DNA of 64,000 bases from assembly GCF_001021385.1 (NCBI RefSeq), contig NZ_CP011773.1:2232001-2296000 (forward strand), given 5' to 3'. Position 1 is the first letter of the stretch, and each line of letters opens with the position of its first letter. Shown piece after piece: positions 6,497-34,486 of the stretch. This stretch comes from Mycobacterium sp. EPa45. Its GTDB lineage: Bacteria > Actinomycetota > Actinomycetes > Mycobacteriales > Mycobacteriaceae. Below the pieces are notes generated by a model. It was not told the origin of the DNA and ran no database searches. It was given only the letters and a program-made list of their open reading frames with translations. The position numbers and the translations under genes were made by a program.

Positions 6497-7345
6497 GTGC
6501 CTGAACTGCCCGAGGTCGAGGTAGTTCGGCGCGGCCTGCAGGCCCACGTCGCCGGTCGGTCCATCTCCGCCGTGCGGGTACACCACCCGCGAGCAGTTCG
6601 CCGGCACGAGGCCGGTGCCGCCGACCTGACCGCCCGGCTGCTCGACGCGGAGATCACCGGAACCGACCGGCGTGGAAAGTACCTGTGGCTCAACCTTTCT
6701 GACGAGACGGCGCTGGTGGTACACCTGGGGATGAGCGGTCAGATGCTGCTCGGCCCGGTGCCCAACACCAATCACCTCCGCATCGCGGCCCTGCTCGATG
6801 ACGGCACCGCGCTGAGCTTCGTCGACCAGCGCACCTTCGGCGGATGGCAGCTGGCCGACCTGGTCGACGTCGACGGCAGTCGGGTGCCCGAGCCGGTCGC
6901 CCACATCGCACGCGACCCGCTCGATCCGCGGTTCGACCGCGACGCCGTCGTTACAGTGTTGCGCCGCAAGCACTCCGAGATCAAGCGGCAGCTCCTCGAT
7001 CAGACCGTGGTGTCGGGGATCGGCAACATCTACGCCGACGAGGCGCTGTGGCGGGCCAAGATCAACGGCGCGCGTTTGGCCGCCAACCTGACCCGCCGCC
7101 AGCTCGGCGAGCTGCTCGATGCGGCCACCGAAGTGATGCGCGAGGCGCTCGGCCAGGGCGGCACGTCGTTCGACTCGCTGTACGTCAACGTCAATGGGCA
7201 GTCCGGTTACTTCGACCGGTCACTGAACGTCTACGGCCGCGAGGACCTGCCTTGTCCGCGCTGTGGCACAGCTATTCGCCGCGAGAAGTTCATGAATCGC
7301 TCGTCGTTCTATTGCCCGAAATGCCAACCCCGGCCGAGGCGTTGA
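6497..7345 (+). CDS. mutM: Formamidopyrimidine-DNA glycosylase (Fpg/MutM)
   Basis: Bifunctional DNA glycosylase/AP lyase removing 8-oxoguanine and Fapy lesions. It begins [13 protein letters not shown], with the catalytic Pro and Glu directly after the initiator. Further marks are HLGMSGQML, the helix-two-turn-helix [12 protein letters not shown], and a C-terminal zinc finger CPRCG...FYCPKCQ. 282 residues is normal. GTG 6497 must be the start because the mature protein needs N-terminal Pro. The start is 27 bases after rnc. Confidence 0.97.
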
Positions 7346-7381
7346 AATCACCGCGCCGAGATCGACGTTTTGGCGTGATTT
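7345..7381 (+). repeat. Small inverted repeat after mutM
   Basis: AAATCAC at the mutM stop pairs with GTGATTT ending at 7381, with GCC/GGC next to them and a small bulge. It could form a hairpin in the mutM-OsmC gap, but there is no T-run, so terminator function is doubtful. Confidence 0.3.
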
Positions 7382-7430
7382 ACTCGCACTTTCGCGGCCA
7401 AGCGTTGGTTTGGGCGCAGAGGAAGGAACC

Positions 7431-7847
7431 ATGACTGACCTTTGGGTGGAACGCACCGGCATCCGCCGCTACACCGGACGCAGCAGCCGCGGCGCGGAGG
7501 TGCTGATCGGCTCGGAGACCGACGAGGGCGTCTTCACCCCGGGCGAGCTGCTCAAGATCGCACTGGCCGGCTGCAGCGGCCTGAGCAGCGACCAGCCACT
7601 GCGCCGCCGCCTCGGCGACGATTATCCGGCGGTGATCAAGGTGTCCGGGGCGGCCGACCGGGAGCAGGAGCGCTACCCGTTGCTCGAGGAGAAGCTGGAG
7701 ATCGACCTCTCCGGGATGTCGGCAGAGGAGGTCGAACGACTGGTAGTGGTGGTCAGCAGGGCGATCGACCAGGTGTGCACGGTTGGGCGCACGCTGAAAT
7801 CCGGCACCGAGGTCCGCTTCGAGGTGGATGACAGTGGCCGATCCTGA
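7431..7847 (+). CDS. OsmC/Ohr family protein
   Basis: A 138-residue OsmC-like thiol peroxidase candidate. The two family cysteines are present: [13 protein letters not shown] near residue 50 and [13 protein letters not shown] near 115, positions used for organic hydroperoxide reduction in OsmC/Ohr. ATG 7431 is preceded by GGAAGGAA; an upstream in-frame GTG at 7410 is less likely. It overlaps acyP by 14 bases. The same OsmC-acyP-smc order is found in M. tuberculosis. Substrate unknown. Confidence 0.88.
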
Positions 7848-8115
7848 CACTCGCCTGACCGCCTGGGTGCACGGCCACGTACAGGGCGTCGGATTCCGCT
7901 GGTGGACTCGTTCGCGGGCGCTGGAGCTGGGCCTGACCGGTTATGCGGCCAATCAGGCCGACGGCCGGGTGCTGGTCGTCGCGCAGGGTTCGCGTGACGC
8001 GTGTGAACAGCTGTTACAGCTGCTCAATAGTGGGAAAACGCCGGGGCACGTCGACACAGTTGTTGTCGACTGGTCACCGCGCGGCGAAGCCATCAGAGGC
8101 TTTAGCGAGCGGTAG
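7834..8115 (+). CDS. acyP: Acylphosphatase
   Basis: Hydrolyses acyl phosphates such as 1,3-bisphosphoglycerate or carbamoyl phosphate. The fold signature [26 protein letters not shown] contains the phosphate-binding loop and catalytic Arg, and AANQADGRV contains the catalytic Asn. GTG 7834 is chosen because GAGGTGG lies 6 bases upstream, giving 93 residues, the normal length; the ATG at 7828 would sit directly on that ribosome site. It overlaps the OsmC gene by 14 bases. Confidence 0.93.
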
Positions 8116-8118
8116 TCT
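8113..8118 (+). promoter_or_regulatory. Candidate -10 (TAGTCT) for leaderless smc
   Basis: TAGTCT overlaps the acyP stop codon and is followed by 8 bases and the smc GTG. It suggests smc can be transcribed separately and without a leader. Confidence 0.4.
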
Positions 8119-8126
8119 GGCTCGCC

Positions 8127-11100
8127 GTGTACCTCAAGAGTCTGACGCTGAAGGGCTTCAAGTCCTTCGCCGCGGCGACGACTCTGCGCCTCGAGCCCGG
8201 CATCACCTGTGTGGTCGGTCCCAACGGCTCGGGTAAGTCCAATGTCGTCGACGCGCTGGCCTGGGTGATGGGTGAGCAGGGCGCCAAAACGCTGCGCGGC
8301 GGCAAGATGGAGGACGTCATCTTCGCCGGCACCTCGTCGCGGGCGCCGCTGGGCCGAGCGGAGGTCACTCTCACCATCGACAACTCGGACAACGCGCTGC
8401 CGATCGAGTACTCCGAGGTCTCGATCACCCGGCGGATGTTCCGCGACGGTGCGGGTGAATACGAGATCAACGGCAGCAGTTGCCGGCTGATGGACGTCCA
8501 GGAATTGCTCAGCGACTCCGGCATCGGCCGGGAGATGCACGTCATCGTCGGCCAGGGCAGGCTCGCCCAGATCCTGGAGTCGCGACCCGAAGACCGCCGG
8601 GCCTTCATCGAAGAGGCCGCCGGTGTGCTCAAGCACCGCAAACGCAAGGAAAAGGCGGTCCGCAAACTCGAGTCGATGGGTGCCAATCTGGCCCGGCTCA
8701 CCGACCTGACCACCGAGCTGCGCCGTCAGCTCAAGCCGCTGGGCCGGCAGGCCGAGATGGCCCGGCGCGCCCAGACGATTCAGGCCGATCTGCGCGACGC
8801 TCGGCTGCGACTCGCCGCCGACGACCTCGTCGCCCGGCGCGCTGAGTTCGCCGGCGCTGATGACACCGAGACCACGCTGCGCCGCGAGCACGACGAAGCC
8901 TCGAAACGCCTGGACATCCTCAGTGCGGCACTGGCCACTCACGAGGCCGCCGTGTCGACGCTGTCGGAGCGCACCGATGCCGCTCAGCAGGCCTGGTTCC
9001 GGCTGTCCGCATTGGCCGAGCGGGTCAGCGCCACCATCCGGATCGCCTCCGAGCGGGCGCAGTACCTCGAGGCCGAGCCCACTGCGAGCACCGGCCCGGA
9101 CCCCGACGCGCTGGAAGCCGAGGCCGACGAGGTCGCGGCACTCGAGCAGGAGTTGGTGGCCGAACTGGCCGAGGCGCAGTCGCGGCTGGAATTCGCCCGC
9201 GCCGAGCTCGGCGAACGCGAGCGTGCGGCCGCGGAGGCCGAACGCGCCCACATGGCCGCCGTGCGAGCCGAAGCCGACCGCCGCGAGGGCCTGGCCCGGC
9301 TGGCCGGTCAGGTGGAGACGGTGCGTGCCCGGGTCGAATCGATCGACGAGGGTGTCGCCCGGCTGACCGGCGCGATCGAAGAGGCTGCCGCGCGCACTCA
9401 ACAGGCGAGAGCCGAGTTCGAGACCGTTCAGGGCCGGGTCGGTGAGCTCGATCAGGGCGAAGTCGGCCTCGACGAGCAGCACGACCGCACGATCACCGCG
9501 CTGCGGTTGGCCGACGAACGGGTGGCCGAGTTGCAGGCCGCCGAGCGCAGCGCCGAACGGCAGGTGGCCTCCCTGCGGGCCCGCATTGATGCGCTCGCCG
9601 TTGGTCTGGAGCGCAGGGACGGGTCGGCCTGGCTGACTGAAAATCACCGCGGCACAGGACTTTTCGGAACGATTGCCAAGCTTGTCAAGGTACGTTCGGG
9701 TTACGAGGCGGCACTGGCGGCGGTGCTGGGGGCTGCGGCCGACGCGGTGGCAGCTGATGACTTCAACGCGGCCCGCTCGGCGGTGCGTGCGCTCAAGGAC
9801 GCCGACGGCGGCCGAGCCGCAATCGTCTTGGGGGACTGGCCGGTTGTACCGCGCCAGTTCGGGCCGCTGCCCGACGGCGCGTTGTGGGCGCTGGACCTGA
9901 TCGAGGCGCCGGGTCGTCTTCAGGGCGCAATGACGGCGATGCTGGCCGACGTCGCCGTTGTCGACGAGCTCGGTGCCGCGCTGGACCTGGTTGCCTCCCG
10001 GCCTACATTGCGCGCGGTCACCCTCGAAGGTGATCTCGTCGGCGCCGGATGGGTCACCGGCGGTTCCGACCGCAAGCCGAGCACACTGGAGATCACCGGC
10101 GAAATCGACAAGGCGAGACGCGAACTCGCCGCAGCCGAGACCCAGGTAGAGGAGCTCTCCGCCGCACTGGCCGGTGCGCTCACCGAGCAGGGTGAACGAC
10201 AGGACGCCGCCGAGCAGGCGCTGGCCGCGCTCAACGAATCCGATGCCGAAATCGCGGCGATCTACGAACAGCTCGGCAGGCTCGGGCAGGAAGCCCGTGC
10301 GGCTGAGGGGGAGTGGCGTCGCCAACAGGCCCAGCGTGACGAGCTCGAGGCCGGGCGTCTGCAGACGGTCGAGGAGCTGACCGAGCTCGAGAACCGGCTG
10401 GCCGCCGCCCAGGAGGGGCAAACCGAGATCGCGGACACTCCCGACGACCGGCAGTACATGCAGGCCGCCGCCGAGGAAGCCCGTGCCGTCGAGGTGGAGG
10501 TGCGACTGGCCGTGCGTACGGCCGAGGAACGCGCCAATGCCGTTCGTGGGCGGGCAGATTCGCTGCGCCGCGCCGCGACCGCCGAACGGGAGGCGCGAAT
10601 CCGTGCCCAGCGTGCCCGCGCGGCCCGCGAACATGCCGCCGCCGTGGCCGCCGCGGTGGCCGAATCCGGCCGCCGCGTCGCCGAACACCTGGCCGGCGTC
10701 GTCGCGGCAGCGTCCCGGCGGCGCGACGCGCTGGCGGCCGAACGCCAGGAGCGGGCCACTGCGATGACCGCCGCGCGGGAAGAGGTCAACGCGCTGAACG
10801 CCCGGATCGCCGCGTTGACCGACTCGATGCACCGCGACGAGGTGGCCAAAGCCCAAGCGGCGCTGCGTATCGAGCAGCTCGAGCAGATGGTGCTCGAGCA
10901 GTTCGGCATGGCGGCCGACGACCTGATCGCCGAGTACGGCCCCGACGTGGCGCTGCCGCCGTCGGAGTTGGAGATGGCCGAATACGAACAGGCCAAGGAG
11001 CGTGGCGAACAGGTCATGGCGCCGGCGCCGATGCGGTTCGACCGGCCGACCCAGGAGCGGCGCGCCAAGCGGGCCGAGCGAGAGTTGTCCGAGTTGGGCC

Positions 11101-11714
11101 GGGTGAATCCGCTTGCGCTGGAAGAGTTTGCCGCTCTGGAGGAACGCTACAACTTCCTGGCCACCCAACTCGAGGACGTCAAAGCCGCCCGTAAGGATCT
11201 GCTCGACGTGATCGCCGACGTCGATGCGCGCATCCTGCAGGTGTTCGCCGAGGCCTATGCCGATGTCGAGCGCGAGTTCGAGCAGGTGTTTTCGACGCTG
11301 TTTCCCGGCGGCGAAGGCCGGCTCCTGCTGACCGACCCGAACGACCTGTTGACCACCGGCGTCGAGGTCGAGGCCCGCCCGCCCGGCAAGAAGGTCAAGC
11401 GACTGTCGCTGCTCTCCGGTGGTGAGAAGTCGCTGACCGCGGTGGCCATGCTGGTGGCGATCTTCCGTGCCCGCCCCTCGCCGTTCTACGTGATGGACGA
11501 GGTCGAGGCCGCCCTCGACGACGTGAACCTGCGCCGGTTGATCGGGTTGTTCGAGCAGCTGCGGGCGCAGTCACAGCTGATCGTGATCACCCACCAGAAG
11601 CCGACCATGGAGATCGCGGACGCGCTCTACGGCGTCACGATGCAGGGCGACGGCATCACGACGGTGATCTCGCAGCGGATGCGCGGCGAGGAACTGGTTG
11701 CCAGCGCGACCTGA
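8127..11714 (+). CDS. smc: Chromosome segregation protein SMC
   Basis: ATPase of the condensin-like SMC complex for chromosome compaction and segregation. 1195 residues, full length. Walker [10 protein letters not shown] lies at about 31-39, followed by [15 protein letters not shown]. Two long coiled coils (about 170-490 and 670-1010) flank a hinge at about 500-660. The C-terminal head has the ABC signature [12 protein letters not shown] near 1097 and Walker [13 protein letters not shown]. The coil regions are extremely rich in A, E and R, which creates long meaningless open frames on the opposite strand. Confidence 0.97.
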
Positions 11715-11732: not shown

Positions 11733-12731
11733 TCAGTCTGTTTGGATGACGAAGTGCGTTGTCACCAGGTCGTGCGCCAGTGGCGAGTCATCGAGCACGT
11801 CGGCAAGGAGGGTCGCCAGCTCGGCCACCGCTGCCGGGTCGGCGCCGCGCGCCTGTAGTACATCGCCGATCCACCAGGCGGTCTCGCTGATCGGGCGGGT
11901 GTCGCCGGTGAGCAGCGCGGCCGACACCGCGTGCAAGGCCTGGTTCAACGTGTCGTTGACCAAGTCGGCGAAGGCTGCGTCTGGATGCGGTTCGCGCGTC
12001 AGTGACCACCGCTCGCGCAGCGCATCGACTATCTGGCGGTGATGCAAGTCGAGGAAGGCTTGTTCGGTGGCTGCCGCCGGCGAAAGTTCTGGTAGTGCAC
12101 CGGCAACCGTTGGCAGCGCGTCCATCGCCAGCACTGCGGCGTACGCATCGGACGCCCACGCGGTCGCGCCCAGCGCCAGGGCTCGCACGTCATCGTGGCC
12201 GAACGCCGGACCGCCGACCAGGGTCGGGACACCCGCCGCGGTGGCCGCCTCGATGAAGCGGCGGGTGGTCGGCAGCGAACCGAGTACCGAACAGCTGATA
12301 GCGACCGCATCGGGTCCCCGGTCGGCCAGATGCTGGCTGAGCCGCATCGGTGAGGTGGCCGCGCCCAACACGGTGGTGTCCCACCCGTGCACACGCAGTG
12401 CACAGGCGATGATCATGGCCGGCAGCTCATGCCACTCGCGCTCGGCGCAGGCCACCAGAACCGACTTGCCGCTCATCGGATATTCACTCGCGTAGTCTCC
12501 GACGACGCGAGTCGCGGCCACCGAGATCGCGGTGCAGGCGTGCTCGTCGGCGACGGTCCATTCGCCACGCTGCCAACGCATTCCGACATCGCGCTGTGAT
12601 GCGGCGATCACATCGGTCAGCACTTCCACCGGGTCGACGCCGTCGTTGAGCAGTTGGGTCACGATGCCGGTCGCCTGCGCGCGGTTTCTGTTCGCCAGGG
12701 CGTCCTGATAGGCCGAGTTCAGCTCTCGCAC
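11733..12731 (-). CDS. Cobalamin-binding sensor protein, CarH-like cap and B12 domains without DNA-binding domain
   Basis: 332 residues in three parts. Residues 1-80 form a helical bundle with W53-x9-E63-H64, the cap motif that covers adenosylcobalamin in CarH/LitR photoreceptors. Residues 88-185 are a Rossmann-like B12 domain with E99-x-H101-x-x-P104 (normally ExHxxG; H101 would be the lower cobalt ligand), SVL at 148-150 and GG at 173-174. About 210-332 is a helical domain of unknown role. The MerR-type DNA-binding domain of CarH is absent. The residue after W53, where Thermus CarH has the light-state ligand His132, is Gln54. GTG 12731 overlaps the upstream phosphatase gene by 13 bases, so the two are coupled. 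A B12 (possibly light) input to that phosphatase is my inference. Confidence 0.82.
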   Translation of the reverse strand: MRELNSAYQDALANRNRAQATGIVTQLLNDGVDPVEVLTDVIAASQRDVGMRWQRGEWTVADEHACTAISVAATRVVGDYASEYPMSGKSVLVACAEREWHELPAMIIACALRVHGWDTTVLGAATSPMRLSQHLADRGPDAVAISCSVLGSLPTTRRFIEAATAAGVPTLVGGPAFGHDDVRALALGATAWASDAYAAVLAMDALPTVAGALPELSPAAATEQAFLDLHHRQIVDALRERWSLTREPHPDAAFADLVNDTLNQALHAVSAALLTGDTRPISETAWWIGDVLQARGADPAAVAELATLLADVLDDSPLAHDLVTTHFVIQTD

Positions 12732-13969
12732 GTCACCGCCAGTAGCGCCATGTCGTCGTGCGGATCACCGTCCAGATACTCCAGTACGTCGCGTTCGACG
12801 GCTTCGCAGATGACCTCACCGCCGGTGCCGGCATAGGCGGGCAGCATGTCGAGCAGCCGGCGCACGCCATAGAGCCGCTCGTCCCGGCGGGCTTCCTCGA
12901 CCCCGTCGGTGAACATCAGCATCGTGTCACCGCGCTGCAGTCGCACCGTGGCCGGCCGGTAAGACACGCCGGTCTTCACGCCGGCTGCGATTCCGGAGAC
13001 CTCGATCTGCTCGACGTCACCGTTGGCACGGACCACGATCGGGCCGGGGTGGCCGGCGGCGGCGATGCGCGCCTCGGCCCACTGGCCGTCGGACCGGCCA
13101 CGTACCCGGGCGCAGAGCGCGGTAACGAAGCGTCCCGCAGCCTGATCGCACAGGACGGAGTTCAGCGCATCGAGTATCCGGTCGGGGTTACGGTCGAAAT
13201 GTGCTGCGGTACGGATGGTTTGGCGGGCCTGCAAGGTGAGGGCCGCGGAGTCCACTCCTTTGCCGCACACATCACCCAACGTGAGGACCAGGTCGTCACC
13301 GGTGCCGACGACGTCGTAGAAATCACCGCCGACTTCCAGATGCTCCACCGCCGGACGGTAGCGGGCCGCGACCGAGAAACCGGTGGGCTGAGGAAGTTTC
13401 GGCGGCCGAAGGGTCCGCTGCAGCGCCACTGCCAGTTGGCCGCGCTCCTCGTAGAGCCGGGCGGAATCGAGGGCGACAGCCGCCATGGCGCCGACCCGCT
13501 CGGCCTCGACGATCGTGTCGGCGTCGAACAGCCGACCGGCCGTCCGGGCCAGAACGAACGCACCCAGCGTCGCGCCCCGCGCGGTGAGCGCCAGCGTCAG
13601 CACATCGGCCGGTCGCAGTCCGGCGAGTTCCTCGGCGAGCGCGCCGTGTCGTAGCCGGGTGGCGATTTCGGTGAGCGACATGTCGTTACCGACGTGGCGA
13701 TGGGCCCGCTGGCCGGTGCGCAACACCTGATCCAAACCCCGCTCGGTCGCCGACGACCGCGAAATGACGTCGGCGAAGCCGACATTGGCGCCGCCATAGA
13801 CCGACAGGCCGCCGGTCCGGTGATCGGGCATGGCCAGGACCGCCCAGTCCGCCAGTGCGGGCCGGACGGCGGTGAGTAGCTTCAGCACCGTCCGTCGCAG
13901 ATTCAGCGACCCATTCAAGGCGACCTCGACGTCGCGGTGCGCGACACCGGCCGCATACTGGTTTGCCAT
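12719..13969 (-). CDS. GAF-SpoIIE serine phosphatase (RsbU-type, PP2C)
   Basis: 416 residues. A GAF-like sensor region (about 20-190) precedes a SpoIIE-type PP2C domain with the metal-binding marks GGDFYDVV, GDVCGKGVDSAAL, MFTDGVEEAR and DPHDDMALLAV. Such phosphatases dephosphorylate STAS anti-sigma antagonists in partner-switching cascades. ATG 13969 is preferred over GTG 13978 because a TAGCGT box lies 7 bases upstream. The gene is followed with a 13-base overlap by the cobalamin-binding protein and is divergent from a STAS antagonist gene, its likely substrate. The specific sigma factor is not in the window. Confidence 0.9.
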   Translation of the reverse strand: MANQYAAGVAHRDVEVALNGSLNLRRTVLKLLTAVRPALADWAVLAMPDHRTGGLSVYGGANVGFADVISRSSATERGLDQVLRTGQRAHRHVGNDMSLTEIATRLRHGALAEELAGLRPADVLTLALTARGATLGAFVLARTAGRLFDADTIVEAERVGAMAAVALDSARLYEERGQLAVALQRTLRPPKLPQPTGFSVAARYRPAVEHLEVGGDFYDVVGTGDDLVLTLGDVCGKGVDSAALTLQARQTIRTAAHFDRNPDRILDALNSVLCDQAAGRFVTALCARVRGRSDGQWAEARIAAAGHPGPIVVRANGDVEQIEVSGIAAGVKTGVSYRPATVRLQRGDTMLMFTDGVEEARRDERLYGVRRLLDMLPAYAGTGGEVICEAVERDVLEYLDGDPHDDMALLAVTCES

Positions 13970-13976
13970 TGCTTCC

Positions 13977-13982
13977 ACGCTA
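13977..13982 (-). promoter_or_regulatory. Candidate -10 (TAGCGT) for the phosphatase/B12 operon
   Basis: Read on the minus strand, GCTAGCGT is followed by 7 bases and ATG 13969, the leaderless layout also seen before coaD and amiC. The rest of the 146-base divergent region (13970-14115) contains GCTAACCTA at 14035-14043, half of an IdeR-like palindrome only, and no other clear operator. Confidence 0.45.
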
Positions 13983-14115
13983 GCGCCACGTGCACCTGCT
14001 CGTGCAGGCCCGGTGCTGTTAACCGTGATGAGCTAACCTATTCGCCGGGGTTAAAGCAGCAGCCTTCAGACATGTTGTCGCCCGTCGACCGGGCACCGAT
14101 CGTCGAAGGGTGGCT

Positions 14116-14466
14116 TTGGACGCATACGATCCCCGCTTGCAGTGGTTGGGGAGGACCGCAGTCGTCAGCGCCTCGGGAGCCCTGGACCTGCTGACATCCC
14201 CGCGTCTGGAACACCTCGTCACCAGCACACTCGAACAGCGGCCGATGGCGTTGATCATCGACCTGACCGACGTGACCTTCCTGAGTTCGGCGGGCATGCA
14301 GGTTCTGGTGGACGCCCATGACGCGACGGGGCCGGACATCGGTTTCGCCGTGGTCGCCGACGGTCCCGGCACCAGCCGGCCACTCAAGCTCGTCGGCCTG
14401 AACGAAGTGTTCGACGTCGTTCCCGTCCTGCAGACGGCTGTCGACAGGCTCAGCCGAGGGGCATGA
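14116..14466 (+). CDS. STAS-domain anti-sigma factor antagonist
   Basis: A single STAS domain of 116 residues (SpoIIAA/RsbV-like). The phosphorylation loop reads [12 protein letters not shown] with Ser57/Ser58, one of which would be phosphorylated by a RsbW-type kinase and released by a SpoIIE phosphatase. TTG 14116 has GAAGGG 5 bases upstream; GTG 14110, two codons earlier, would lie on that ribosome site but is possible (118 residues). Divergent from the phosphatase/B12 operon and convergent with fni, overlapping its 3' end by 17 bases. Confidence 0.88.
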
Positions 14467-32666: not shown

Positions 32667-33533
32667 GTGCGGGCATCGATGGTCATGGACTCGGTGGTCG
32701 GCTTCGGCCCACGAGACCATCTGTGTCTGGCCTACGACGACCCCGCTACCTTCGCCACGAAGGCCGTGGCGTTTCTGGCCGACGGCCTCGCCCAAGGGCT
32801 ACAGGTCCGATATGTATCGGCGAGTTCGTCGCACGAAATCGCCGATCTTCGTGACTGGCTACTCGACGAGCTGGCACCGGATCGAGCCGACGCGGTGCAA
32901 ATAGAGTCGGTTCGCGACACGTACGGCTTGGGGCATGTCGTGTCGGTAGGCGAGCAGGTCACGGCGTACGCGAACGCCACATCAGCGGCACTGGCGGCTG
33001 GCTTTGCCGGACTCCGCGTTGCCGCGGATGCCACGCCCTTGGTCACCACACCGCAACAGCTCGATGCCTTCGCCCGGTACGAACACCAGATCGATCGGTA
33101 CATGAGCCGGCACCCATTCTCGGCGATGTGCGGCTATGACCGGGCAGTGCTCGGGACGGACGCGGTGGCGGAGCTCGCCTGCCTGCATCCGGTGAGCAAT
33201 GCCGCGACGATGTTCCGATGGCACGCGGCCGAATCGGGCGATGGCCCGCCGCGCGCAGGCGGGCCCGTAGAGGTGGTGCTGGCGGGGGAGATCGACCGAT
33301 CGGTCCATGCTTTGCTTCGTAAGGCATTGCAGCGCATCGATTTAGAGCAAGGGCAGTTAGTCGAGCTCGACGTCGCCGGCCTCGATTTCATCGATCACCA
33401 CGCCATCGCCGAACTCGACGCACTCGGCCGGCGACACCAAGCCCGGATAGTGCTTCGCAATCCCGGCCACTTGGTGACGCGAGTCGTCGAGCTGATGACA
33501 CCCGAGACCGTCGGGGTGGGGACACCAGCATGA
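32667..33533 (+). CDS. MEDS-STAS fusion regulator (serine site replaced)
   Basis: 288 residues. Residues about 12-165 form a MEDS domain (sensor domain named from methanogen/methylotroph DcmR; starts FGPRDHLCLAYDD, core RVAADATPLV, FSAMCGYDRAVL). About 195-280 is a STAS domain (VEVVLAGEIDRSVHALL ... LDVAGLDFIDHHAIAEL). At the site where antagonists carry a phosphorylatable Ser (DSSG-type loop) this protein reads DHHA, so Ser control is probably lost. The 3' end overlaps the next gene as ATGA. Likely role: sensor partner of the neighbouring ATPase; signal unknown. Confidence 0.82.
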   Translation: MRASMVMDSVVGFGPRDHLCLAYDDPATFATKAVAFLADGLAQGLQVRYVSASSSHEIADLRDWLLDELAPDRADAVQIESVRDTYGLGHVVSVGEQVTAYANATSAALAAGFAGLRVAADATPLVTTPQQLDAFARYEHQIDRYMSRHPFSAMCGYDRAVLGTDAVAELACLHPVSNAATMFRWHAAESGDGPPRAGGPVEVVLAGEIDRSVHALLRKALQRIDLEQGQLVELDVAGLDFIDHHAIAELDALGRRHQARIVLRNPGHLVTRVVELMTPETVGVGTPA

Positions 33534-34486
33534 GGACCGGCGCGGCATCAGGGACAGAGGGCTACTTTCACGAGGCGGCGTTCTACCGCAGCGACGACGA
33601 ATTCCTCGCCCTTGTCATGCCGTTTCTCACCGACGGGGTGGCCGCTGGGGAGCCCACGCTCGTCACGCTGGGTGAGGCCAACAGCCAACTGGTCCGTGCC
33701 GCGCTGACCACCACTCGCGGCATCTCGTTCGTGCCGGCAGAGACGCAGTACGCCCGGCCGGCCGCGGCAATCCGTACCTATCAGGAGTTGATGGCCGACT
33801 ACGTGCGACGAGGCGCCACTCAGATCCGCATCGTCGGCGACGTCCCCCATCCTGGTGTGGGAGCGGAGTGGGGTTGGTGGGCGCGGTACGAAGCGGCCGT
33901 CAACGAGGCCTTCAACGCTTATCCGGTGTGGGGCTTGTGTCCCTACGACGTGCGCCACACACCCACAGACGTTCTCGCCGACGTGTCGCGTACACATCCG
34001 CAGCTCGCCACCGTTGACGGCGGCCACGTGACCAACCCAGACTTCGTCGTCCCCACCGACTTCCTCGCCGAGCTCATCAACAGCTCGCCGCCCGCCGAGC
34101 CCCAACCACCCTCGATCACATTGGCCAATCCCACCCCAGAGGCGGCCCGGGCTGCTGTGCGGCACCTCGCCGATCAACGGCTGACGACGCTGGCCGACAC
34201 AGCGGTCAATGACATGATCTTCGCTGTCAGCGAAGGCGTGGAGAACGCGACGGTCCACGGCAGAGCGCCGACAACGCTACGGATCTGGAACTACCGCCAT
34301 CGGCTCGTCGCCCACATCACCGACGCCGGACTGGGCCCGACGGATCCCTACGCTGGACTGCTGCGCGCGGGCAGCACCGCAGGCGCGGGTCTCGGACTGT
34401 GGCTGGCCCACCAGATGTGTACCGCTGTCACGTTGCATCGGCATCGCGGCGGATTCACCCTGCGCATCGCGACGGCCGCCAGCTGA
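33530..34486 (+). CDS. MEDS-HATPase anti-sigma regulatory kinase-like protein
   Basis: 318 residues. MEDS domain at about 12-165 (FHEAAFYRSDDEFLALVMPFLTDGVAAGEPTLV ... VWGLCPYD), then a RsbW-like ATPase at about 190-315 with the N box FAVSEGVENATVHG, D-box ITDAGLGPTDP and G-box GAGLGLWLAHQMC. There is no HisKA dimerisation domain or phosphoacceptor His, so it resembles an anti-sigma factor/Ser kinase rather than a two-component kinase. Translational coupling to the MEDS-STAS gene implies the pair work together. No sigma factor gene is adjacent. Confidence 0.82.
   Translation: MRTGAASGTEGYFHEAAFYRSDDEFLALVMPFLTDGVAAGEPTLVTLGEANSQLVRAALTTTRGISFVPAETQYARPAAAIRTYQELMADYVRRGATQIRIVGDVPHPGVGAEWGWWARYEAAVNEAFNAYPVWGLCPYDVRHTPTDVLADVSRTHPQLATVDGGHVTNPDFVVPTDFLAELINSSPPAEPQPPSITLANPTPEAARAAVRHLADQRLTTLADTAVNDMIFAVSEGVENATVHGRAPTTLRIWNYRHRLVAHITDAGLGPTDPYAGLLRAGSTAGAGLGLWLAHQMCTAVTLHRHRGGFTLRIATAAS

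Follow-up and report, generated by a model that had tools for sequence, protein, structure and literature searches.

The closest described systems are the photocobilins, a family published with crystal structures of SasPcob (8J2W, 8J2X) and AbPcob (8J2Y) (PMC10979010). Its members are reported to show photochemistry and to regulate a separate enzyme through contact with it: isolated AbPcob and holo-SasPcob activate a separate cyclase in their light states, and SasPcob carrying AdoCbl without biliverdin activates the cyclase in the dark and inhibits it in the light. The discoverers regarded the role of stand-alone members as less clear, and a network analysis named STAS, SpoIIE and PP2C proteins as partners with which SasPcob "potentially interacts" (PMC10979010). 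A Trp/Glu-His/His signature has been reported for light-responsive domains (PMC10979010, PMC11796333). As for partner-switching systems, Rv1364c gathers sensor, phosphatase, kinase and antagonist domains within a single protein, and M. smegmatis has a PP2C gene close to rsfB-rsbW2 whose product dephosphorylated RsfB in a preliminary result given as data not shown (PMC7693655); in the same species, the carotenoid pigment seen after growth in light disappears when sigF is lost (PMC4694148).

A link of SasPcob to SpoIIE and STAS proteins had already been proposed in print; what is new here is a clade of photocobilins that lacks Asp270 and shares changes in the globin-like domain. In the literature that we searched, we found no account of how often the genes pair, nor any of mycobacterial photocobilins, SigF-type operons containing a photocobilin or the Asp270-less clade.

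The photocobilin gene and the overlapping phosphatase gene

The window, i.e., the whole stretch of 64,000 nucleotides analysed here, belongs to a genome of 6.18 Mb in one contig and carries the following features.

11733..12731, minus strand: photocobilin gene, 332 aa, GTG start
12516..12713, minus strand: four-helix B12 cap, residues 7-72 (Pfam B12-binding_2, conservation); W53, E63 and H64 at 12540-12575
12132..12464, minus strand: Rossmann-type B12-binding domain, residues 90-200 (Pfam B12-binding, conservation); H101 at 12429-12431, R130 at 12342-12344
11754..12080, minus strand: globin-like domain, helices within residues 218-326 (helices, photocobilin alignment, whole-length fold match); T261 at 11949-11951, W287 at 11871-11873
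12719..12731, minus strand: overlap of the two genes, 13 bases (ORF coordinates)
12719..13978, minus strand: GAF-SpoIIE (PP2C) phosphatase gene, 419 aa, GTG-started ORF; probable ATG start at 13969
12731..13300, minus strand: PP2C catalytic domain, SpoIIE match at residues 227-416 (Pfam SpoIIE, 1.8e-41)
13412-13522, minus strand: long helix, residues 153-189, joining the sensor to the phosphatase domain (structure model)
13466..13903, minus strand: GAF-like sensor, residues 26-171 counted from the GTG start (GAF_2, 0.0024, under the cut-off)
13970..14109, no strand: intergenic region of the divergently oriented phosphatase and STAS genes; six relatives share conserved blocks
14110..14466, plus strand: STAS protein of the anti-sigma factor antagonist type, 118 aa (STAS, 3.3e-12), divergent from the phosphatase

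A preliminary description of this locus had proposed a CarH-like B12 cap. The CarH-type B12 site stands, but the protein is more than a cap: the Pfam matches to B12-binding_2 (residues 7-72, 9.7e-13) and B12-binding (residues 90-200, 3.4e-17) are followed by a C-terminal globin-like domain, which is the domain order of photocobilins. The fold match to photocobilins extends over the whole length. In sequence, the nearest solved relatives over residues 10-319 are 8j2w/8j2x (E 2.7e-47) and 8j2y (4.7e-35), and the CarH/LitR entries rank after them with 3.7e-8 to 9.6e-8 over residues 34-185 only. Judged by its sequence and fold, the B12 protein of the window is a photocobilin and not the CarH cap alone. 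It was rightly described as devoid of a DNA-binding domain: Pfam returned no such match, MerR-type included, in the photocobilin ORF, and nothing lies N-terminal of the B12 cap, whose first helix spans residues 2-13. Its nearest named relatives are found in Mycolicibacterium (M. pallens, 81%).

The residues W53-x9-E63-H64 and E99-W-H101-x2-P104 are present in the ORF as first read, including H101 in its ExHxxP site 37 residues further on, and constitute the B12 light motif of photocobilins, Trp...Glu-His followed by E/D-x-His. The spacing had been called close to that of CarH; the figure of 37 (H64-H101) holds, to be compared with 36 in SasPcob (H72, H108) and 35 in CarH itself (H142, H177). 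The W, E, H and H are retained in 83, 83, 83 and 84 of 84 rows of the window's clade, which contain repeats (61 are different) and the frame-split L033, the one deviating row; in the latter (genome G292), the photocobilin gene, which belongs to the window's group, is broken across two reading frames. All four residues likewise occur in the 20 rows fetched out of 57 genes of a second mycobacterial group and in 26/26 other rows. The Gly of the published GxxH signature is replaced by Arg here (Arg in 51 of 54 named clade rows, Lys in three), and we count this against the light-gated explanation developed below. These alignments support an intact AdoCbl site, predicted to be a CarH-type photosensor site, throughout the window's clade.

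The overlap of 13 bases with the phosphatase gene (12719-12731) agrees with the preliminary description, and position 13969, at which the latter had ended the feature, is an in-frame ATG, residue 4 of the GTG-started ORF; translation probably begins at this codon, which is conserved in six aligned relatives. Of the GAF-PP2C architecture claimed for the product, the SpoIIE part is firmly matched, and the GAF_2 match stays below its cut-off; the phosphatase of locus L079 passes both the GAF and the GAF_2 cut-offs of Pfam. Residues G218, D219, G235, D236 and D409 are invariant among 36 aligned phosphatases, and we take D219, D236 and D409 to be the acidic metal-site residues, which together with the SpoIIE domain characterize a SpoIIE/RsbU-type PP2C.

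The divergent STAS protein reaches 53.5 bits with TIGR00377 (cut-off 53.45), 77.7 bits with 4qtp and 61.5 bits with RsfB (8ih8), and its Ser60 (14287-14289) aligns to a serine of 4qtp. The conserved blocks of 13970-14109 and L055-L060 read GGCTGCTGC... and, right before the phosphatase start, CGCTAGCGTG; they may represent a promoter or operator. A by-eye look at this region revealed no SigF-type promoter.

Pairing and neighbourhood across genomes

The neighbourhood survey suggested in the preliminary description was carried out on the genus and on named loci. In the genus, 90 of 297 genomes yielded 103 photocobilin rows, a count that leaves out second gene pieces (G292, G008, G141, G010:C35) and rows at or below 27.3 bits (genus phosphatase rows used: at least 106). 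Forty-six belong to the window's group and 57 to the second group, which is 32-42% identical to it, and 13 genomes harbour both. In all but one of these 103 cases, a phosphatase gene related to that of the window immediately precedes the photocobilin gene on the same strand; the unpaired row (G010:C23) is a fragment of a contig-split gene, the N-terminal piece of which (G010:C35:6609-6791) was located by eye 140 nt after a phosphatase. Matched regions are spaced by -10 to 77 nt in the window's group, and the second group shows spacings of 71 to 185 nt; a gap of 403 nt is an artefact of the split gene in G292, whose omitted first piece begins at the phosphatase end. Three second-group phosphatases (G170, G194 and G147) are without a photocobilin row among the matches listed, for which sensor loss or a contig end are possible.

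Among the named loci (best 80 of 464), the phosphatase is upstream in 79, and in the remaining one (L119) the contig starts at the photocobilin. Quick, unrooted trees of the photocobilins and of the phosphatases split the 45 shared loci identically (19/26), an agreement read from this split. The coupling of photocobilin and phosphatase is strong. We also considered fusions as proof of contact between the two; at E <= 0.001, no fusion of the photocobilin region appeared among 7996 word-filtered candidates (proteins of about 413-1314 aa), which is a weak negative.

The proposed link to a SpoIIE phosphatase and a partner-switching circuit is supported by this pairing, by the trees and by the surrounding genes. 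Over the best 80 of 464 named loci, STAS frames occur in 56, RsbW-type frames in 21 and SigF-type frames in nine, compared with none in 20 control stretches of 13 kb, hand-placed in 20 genomes that include no Micromonospora, Pseudonocardia or Nocardioides. The queries were a STAS profile, with 8 of its 10 sequences taken from case loci, an RsbW profile, which also matches kinase domains in large hybrid proteins (L061), and the SigF of the window genome; frames run from stop to stop, and ten of them (L061, L064, L079, L121) were checked with Pfam. In 24 of the 80, no STAS, RsbW or SigF-type gene lies in the stretch examined, and this counts against light-gated partner switching.

The Actinokineospora locus L079 carries, on one strand, HATPase_c_2, a sigma factor of the SigB/F/G type (TIGR02980, 251.3 bits, cut-off 234.35), STAS inside a second HATPase_c_2 frame region, SpoIIE, the photocobilin and a further STAS. 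In L121 (Micromonospora) a STAS frame comes after the photocobilin, and in L061 the photocobilin stop is followed by an open frame of 1381 aa (7027-11169, plus strand) with GAF, HisKA, receiver, PAS, SpoIIE and HATPase_c_2 domains. A frame of 1380 aa located elsewhere in the window genome (L155) ends in a kinase domain similar to that of this hybrid.

The window genome further encodes an RsbW-type gene with sigF (L013; NF005514, 488.5 bits, cut-off 372), a STAS-RsbW pair (L157) and RsfB-like STAS proteins. Its sigF and RsbW genes are far from the photocobilin-phosphatase pair, which again counts against that explanation; the neighbouring genes support a partner-switching output without naming its sigma factor. 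A second partner-switching pair is present 20 kb away in the window (33003-34483, plus strand), made up of a MEDS + STAS_2 frame (33003-33530, truncated at its start in the segment analysed) and a MEDS + HATPase_c_2 frame (33323-34483).

The bilin pocket of the window's clade

In SasPcob, Asp270 touches three biliverdin rings, W296 is the globin Trp in contact with biliverdin and the corrin, and His137 possibly forms a pair, across the dimer, with a propionate of biliverdin (PMC10979010). The aligned positions in the window protein are T261, W287 and R130, respectively. None of the 82 scorable rows of the window's clade (84 rows) has Asp at position 270, which is occupied by Val, Ala, Thr, Ile, Ser or Leu, and the position of His137 is Arg in 82 of the 84; Asp is found in 19 of the 20 fetched second-group rows and in 23 of 26 rows of other actinobacteria. 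Further clade-wide changes affect positions 105, 273, 276, 277, 283 and 293; W296 and R304 are kept, the globin Trp in each of the 82 scorable rows. Asp270 is not a family-wide feature of photocobilins, since AbPcob, the founding member, has His at this position; its full protein still took up about 20% biliverdin (PMC10979010), and members of the window's clade may likewise bind it weakly. In a midpoint drawing of the photocobilin tree (47 rows), one side holds the Asp270-less rows together with two His270 rows (L110, L111), and AbPcob sits on the opposite side at the end of a very long branch.

The changed residues would lie in the bilin pocket, and the good conservation of the new ones seems to speak for a changed use of the pocket rather than its decay. 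The clade raises the question of whether loss or exchange of the second chromophore is possible. As a tentative answer, which we find possible, its members would be photocobilins with a rebuilt bilin pocket in which biliverdin is not used as in SasPcob; green light would be perceived via B12 alone or another tetrapyrrole antenna (in mycobacteria perhaps the mycobilin of MhuD), and the proteins would be devoted to feeding light into a partner-switching circuit of the SigF type. An MhuD-type enzyme is encoded in the window genome (L158; 185-191 bits to 5uq4, 4nl5, 3hx9 and 6ple, the last entitled mycobilin-producing). Mycobilin was nonetheless set aside as the cause of the Asp270 change, the relatives from Kribbella, Actinokineospora and Amycolatopsis being without Asp270 too.

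Heme oxygenase was considered as a marker of biliverdin use. PF01126 had no match in the window genome and matched 3 of 14 control genomes. Within the genus, and uncorrected for relatedness, heme oxygenase is rarer in genomes with the window's group (6/46 vs 94/251, Fisher p 0.0011); the second group shows no such difference (18/57 vs 82/240, p 0.76). Hand counts over 49 chosen named genomes (of the 80 loci) found it in 14 of 30 without Asp270 and in 5 of 19 with it; all 12 Micromonospora genomes (L112, L114, L117, L120-L122, L124, L125, L129, L131-L133) keep Asp270 yet have no PF01126 match, again by hand count. Because its presence does not follow Asp270, the marker was dropped, and its absence is not taken as proof of missing biliverdin.

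Proposed light-gated partner switching and its alternatives

The fold, the B12-site residues, the constant pairing, the matching trees and the partner-switching neighbours form the basis on which we consider it likely that the stand-alone photocobilin provides the phosphatase encoded by the preceding gene with its light input, through AdoCbl. AdoCbl would be bound in the dark by W53, E63/H64 and H101 in a head-to-tail dimer; light would split the Co-C bond, with loss of the adenosyl group and alteration of the dimer face. The altered face would change the contact with the GAF-PP2C phosphatase and, in turn, the removal of phosphate from the adjoining STAS protein, its presumed substrate; dephosphorylated STAS would then bind the RsbW-type kinase/anti-sigma factor and free a SigF-type sigma factor. 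Light would presumably activate the circuit, and given the dark activation seen with AdoCbl-SasPcob, the sign of its effect may differ. Pigment need not be the output, since light-induced carotenoid genes of M. kansasii involve the MarR-type CrtR, the available part of that report naming neither B12 nor SigF (PMC9861118); the window genome has two PF00494 (phytoene/squalene synthase) matches.

Alternatively, the protein might sense the supply of AdoCbl, the bound and empty forms setting the phosphatase and light sensitivity being incidental. The same residues would bind AdoCbl either way, dark-living bacteria need a use for such a sensor, and in the published fusion protein the cyclase became less active upon binding of AdoCbl alone (PMC10979010). 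The Trp/Glu-His/His signature is nevertheless that of light-responsive domains, the nearest solved relatives are light-switched (PMC10979010), and an unsystematic look at the ORFs noticed no B12-supply gene beside the pair; we therefore regard supply sensing as rather unlikely. It also seems improbable to us that the photocobilin leaves the phosphatase untouched and targets a different product of the cluster (STAS, RsbW-type kinase or sigma factor), the two genes simply sharing a transcript: the genes do overlap or lie close and STAS or RsbW-type frames often adjoin them, but the phosphatase is present in every assessable locus, whereas STAS, RsbW-type and SigF-type genes vary. It is hardly credible that the window protein belongs with the corrinoid methyltransferase proteins MtbC/MttC, for despite the shared B12 fold, the name "methanogenic corrinoid protein MtbC1" in some sources and a weak match to the NCBIfam MtbC model (24.6 bits, cut-off 350), it is far nearer to photocobilins over its whole length, possesses the globin-like domain and neighbours sigma-circuit genes.

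Returning to the light-gated phosphatase, the pairing across many actinobacteria suggests that light may steer stress-gene control via this enzyme, and the partner that accompanies the receptor wherever the locus can be assessed is the target to test. Were the proposal correct, light would reach a stress sigma factor by protein contact and dephosphorylation and not through a CarH repressor on DNA, and mycobacterial SigF would gain a candidate light input.

Compared with CarH/LitR (5C8D and others), the window protein is without the MerR-type DNA-binding domain and has the extra globin-like domain, and with 51.4 bits it remains far under the cut-off of 400 of the NCBIfam CarH model NF052513. 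Unlike the Rv1364c phosphatase domain (3KE6), the window phosphatase is paired with a photocobilin. The M. smegmatis SigF system has respiratory inputs and a receiver-domain phosphatase, light being unmentioned in the available part of that account, and likewise has the sigF, RsbW-type gene and RsfB-like STAS found in the window genome (PMC7693655). Among photocobilins, full AbPcob is fused to a diguanylate cyclase and the window protein is unfused; Asp270 and His137 of SasPcob are replaced by Thr261 and Arg130 along with the other clade-wide globin changes, and in contrast to both SasPcob and AbPcob the window gene has an explicit, overlapping phosphatase gene.
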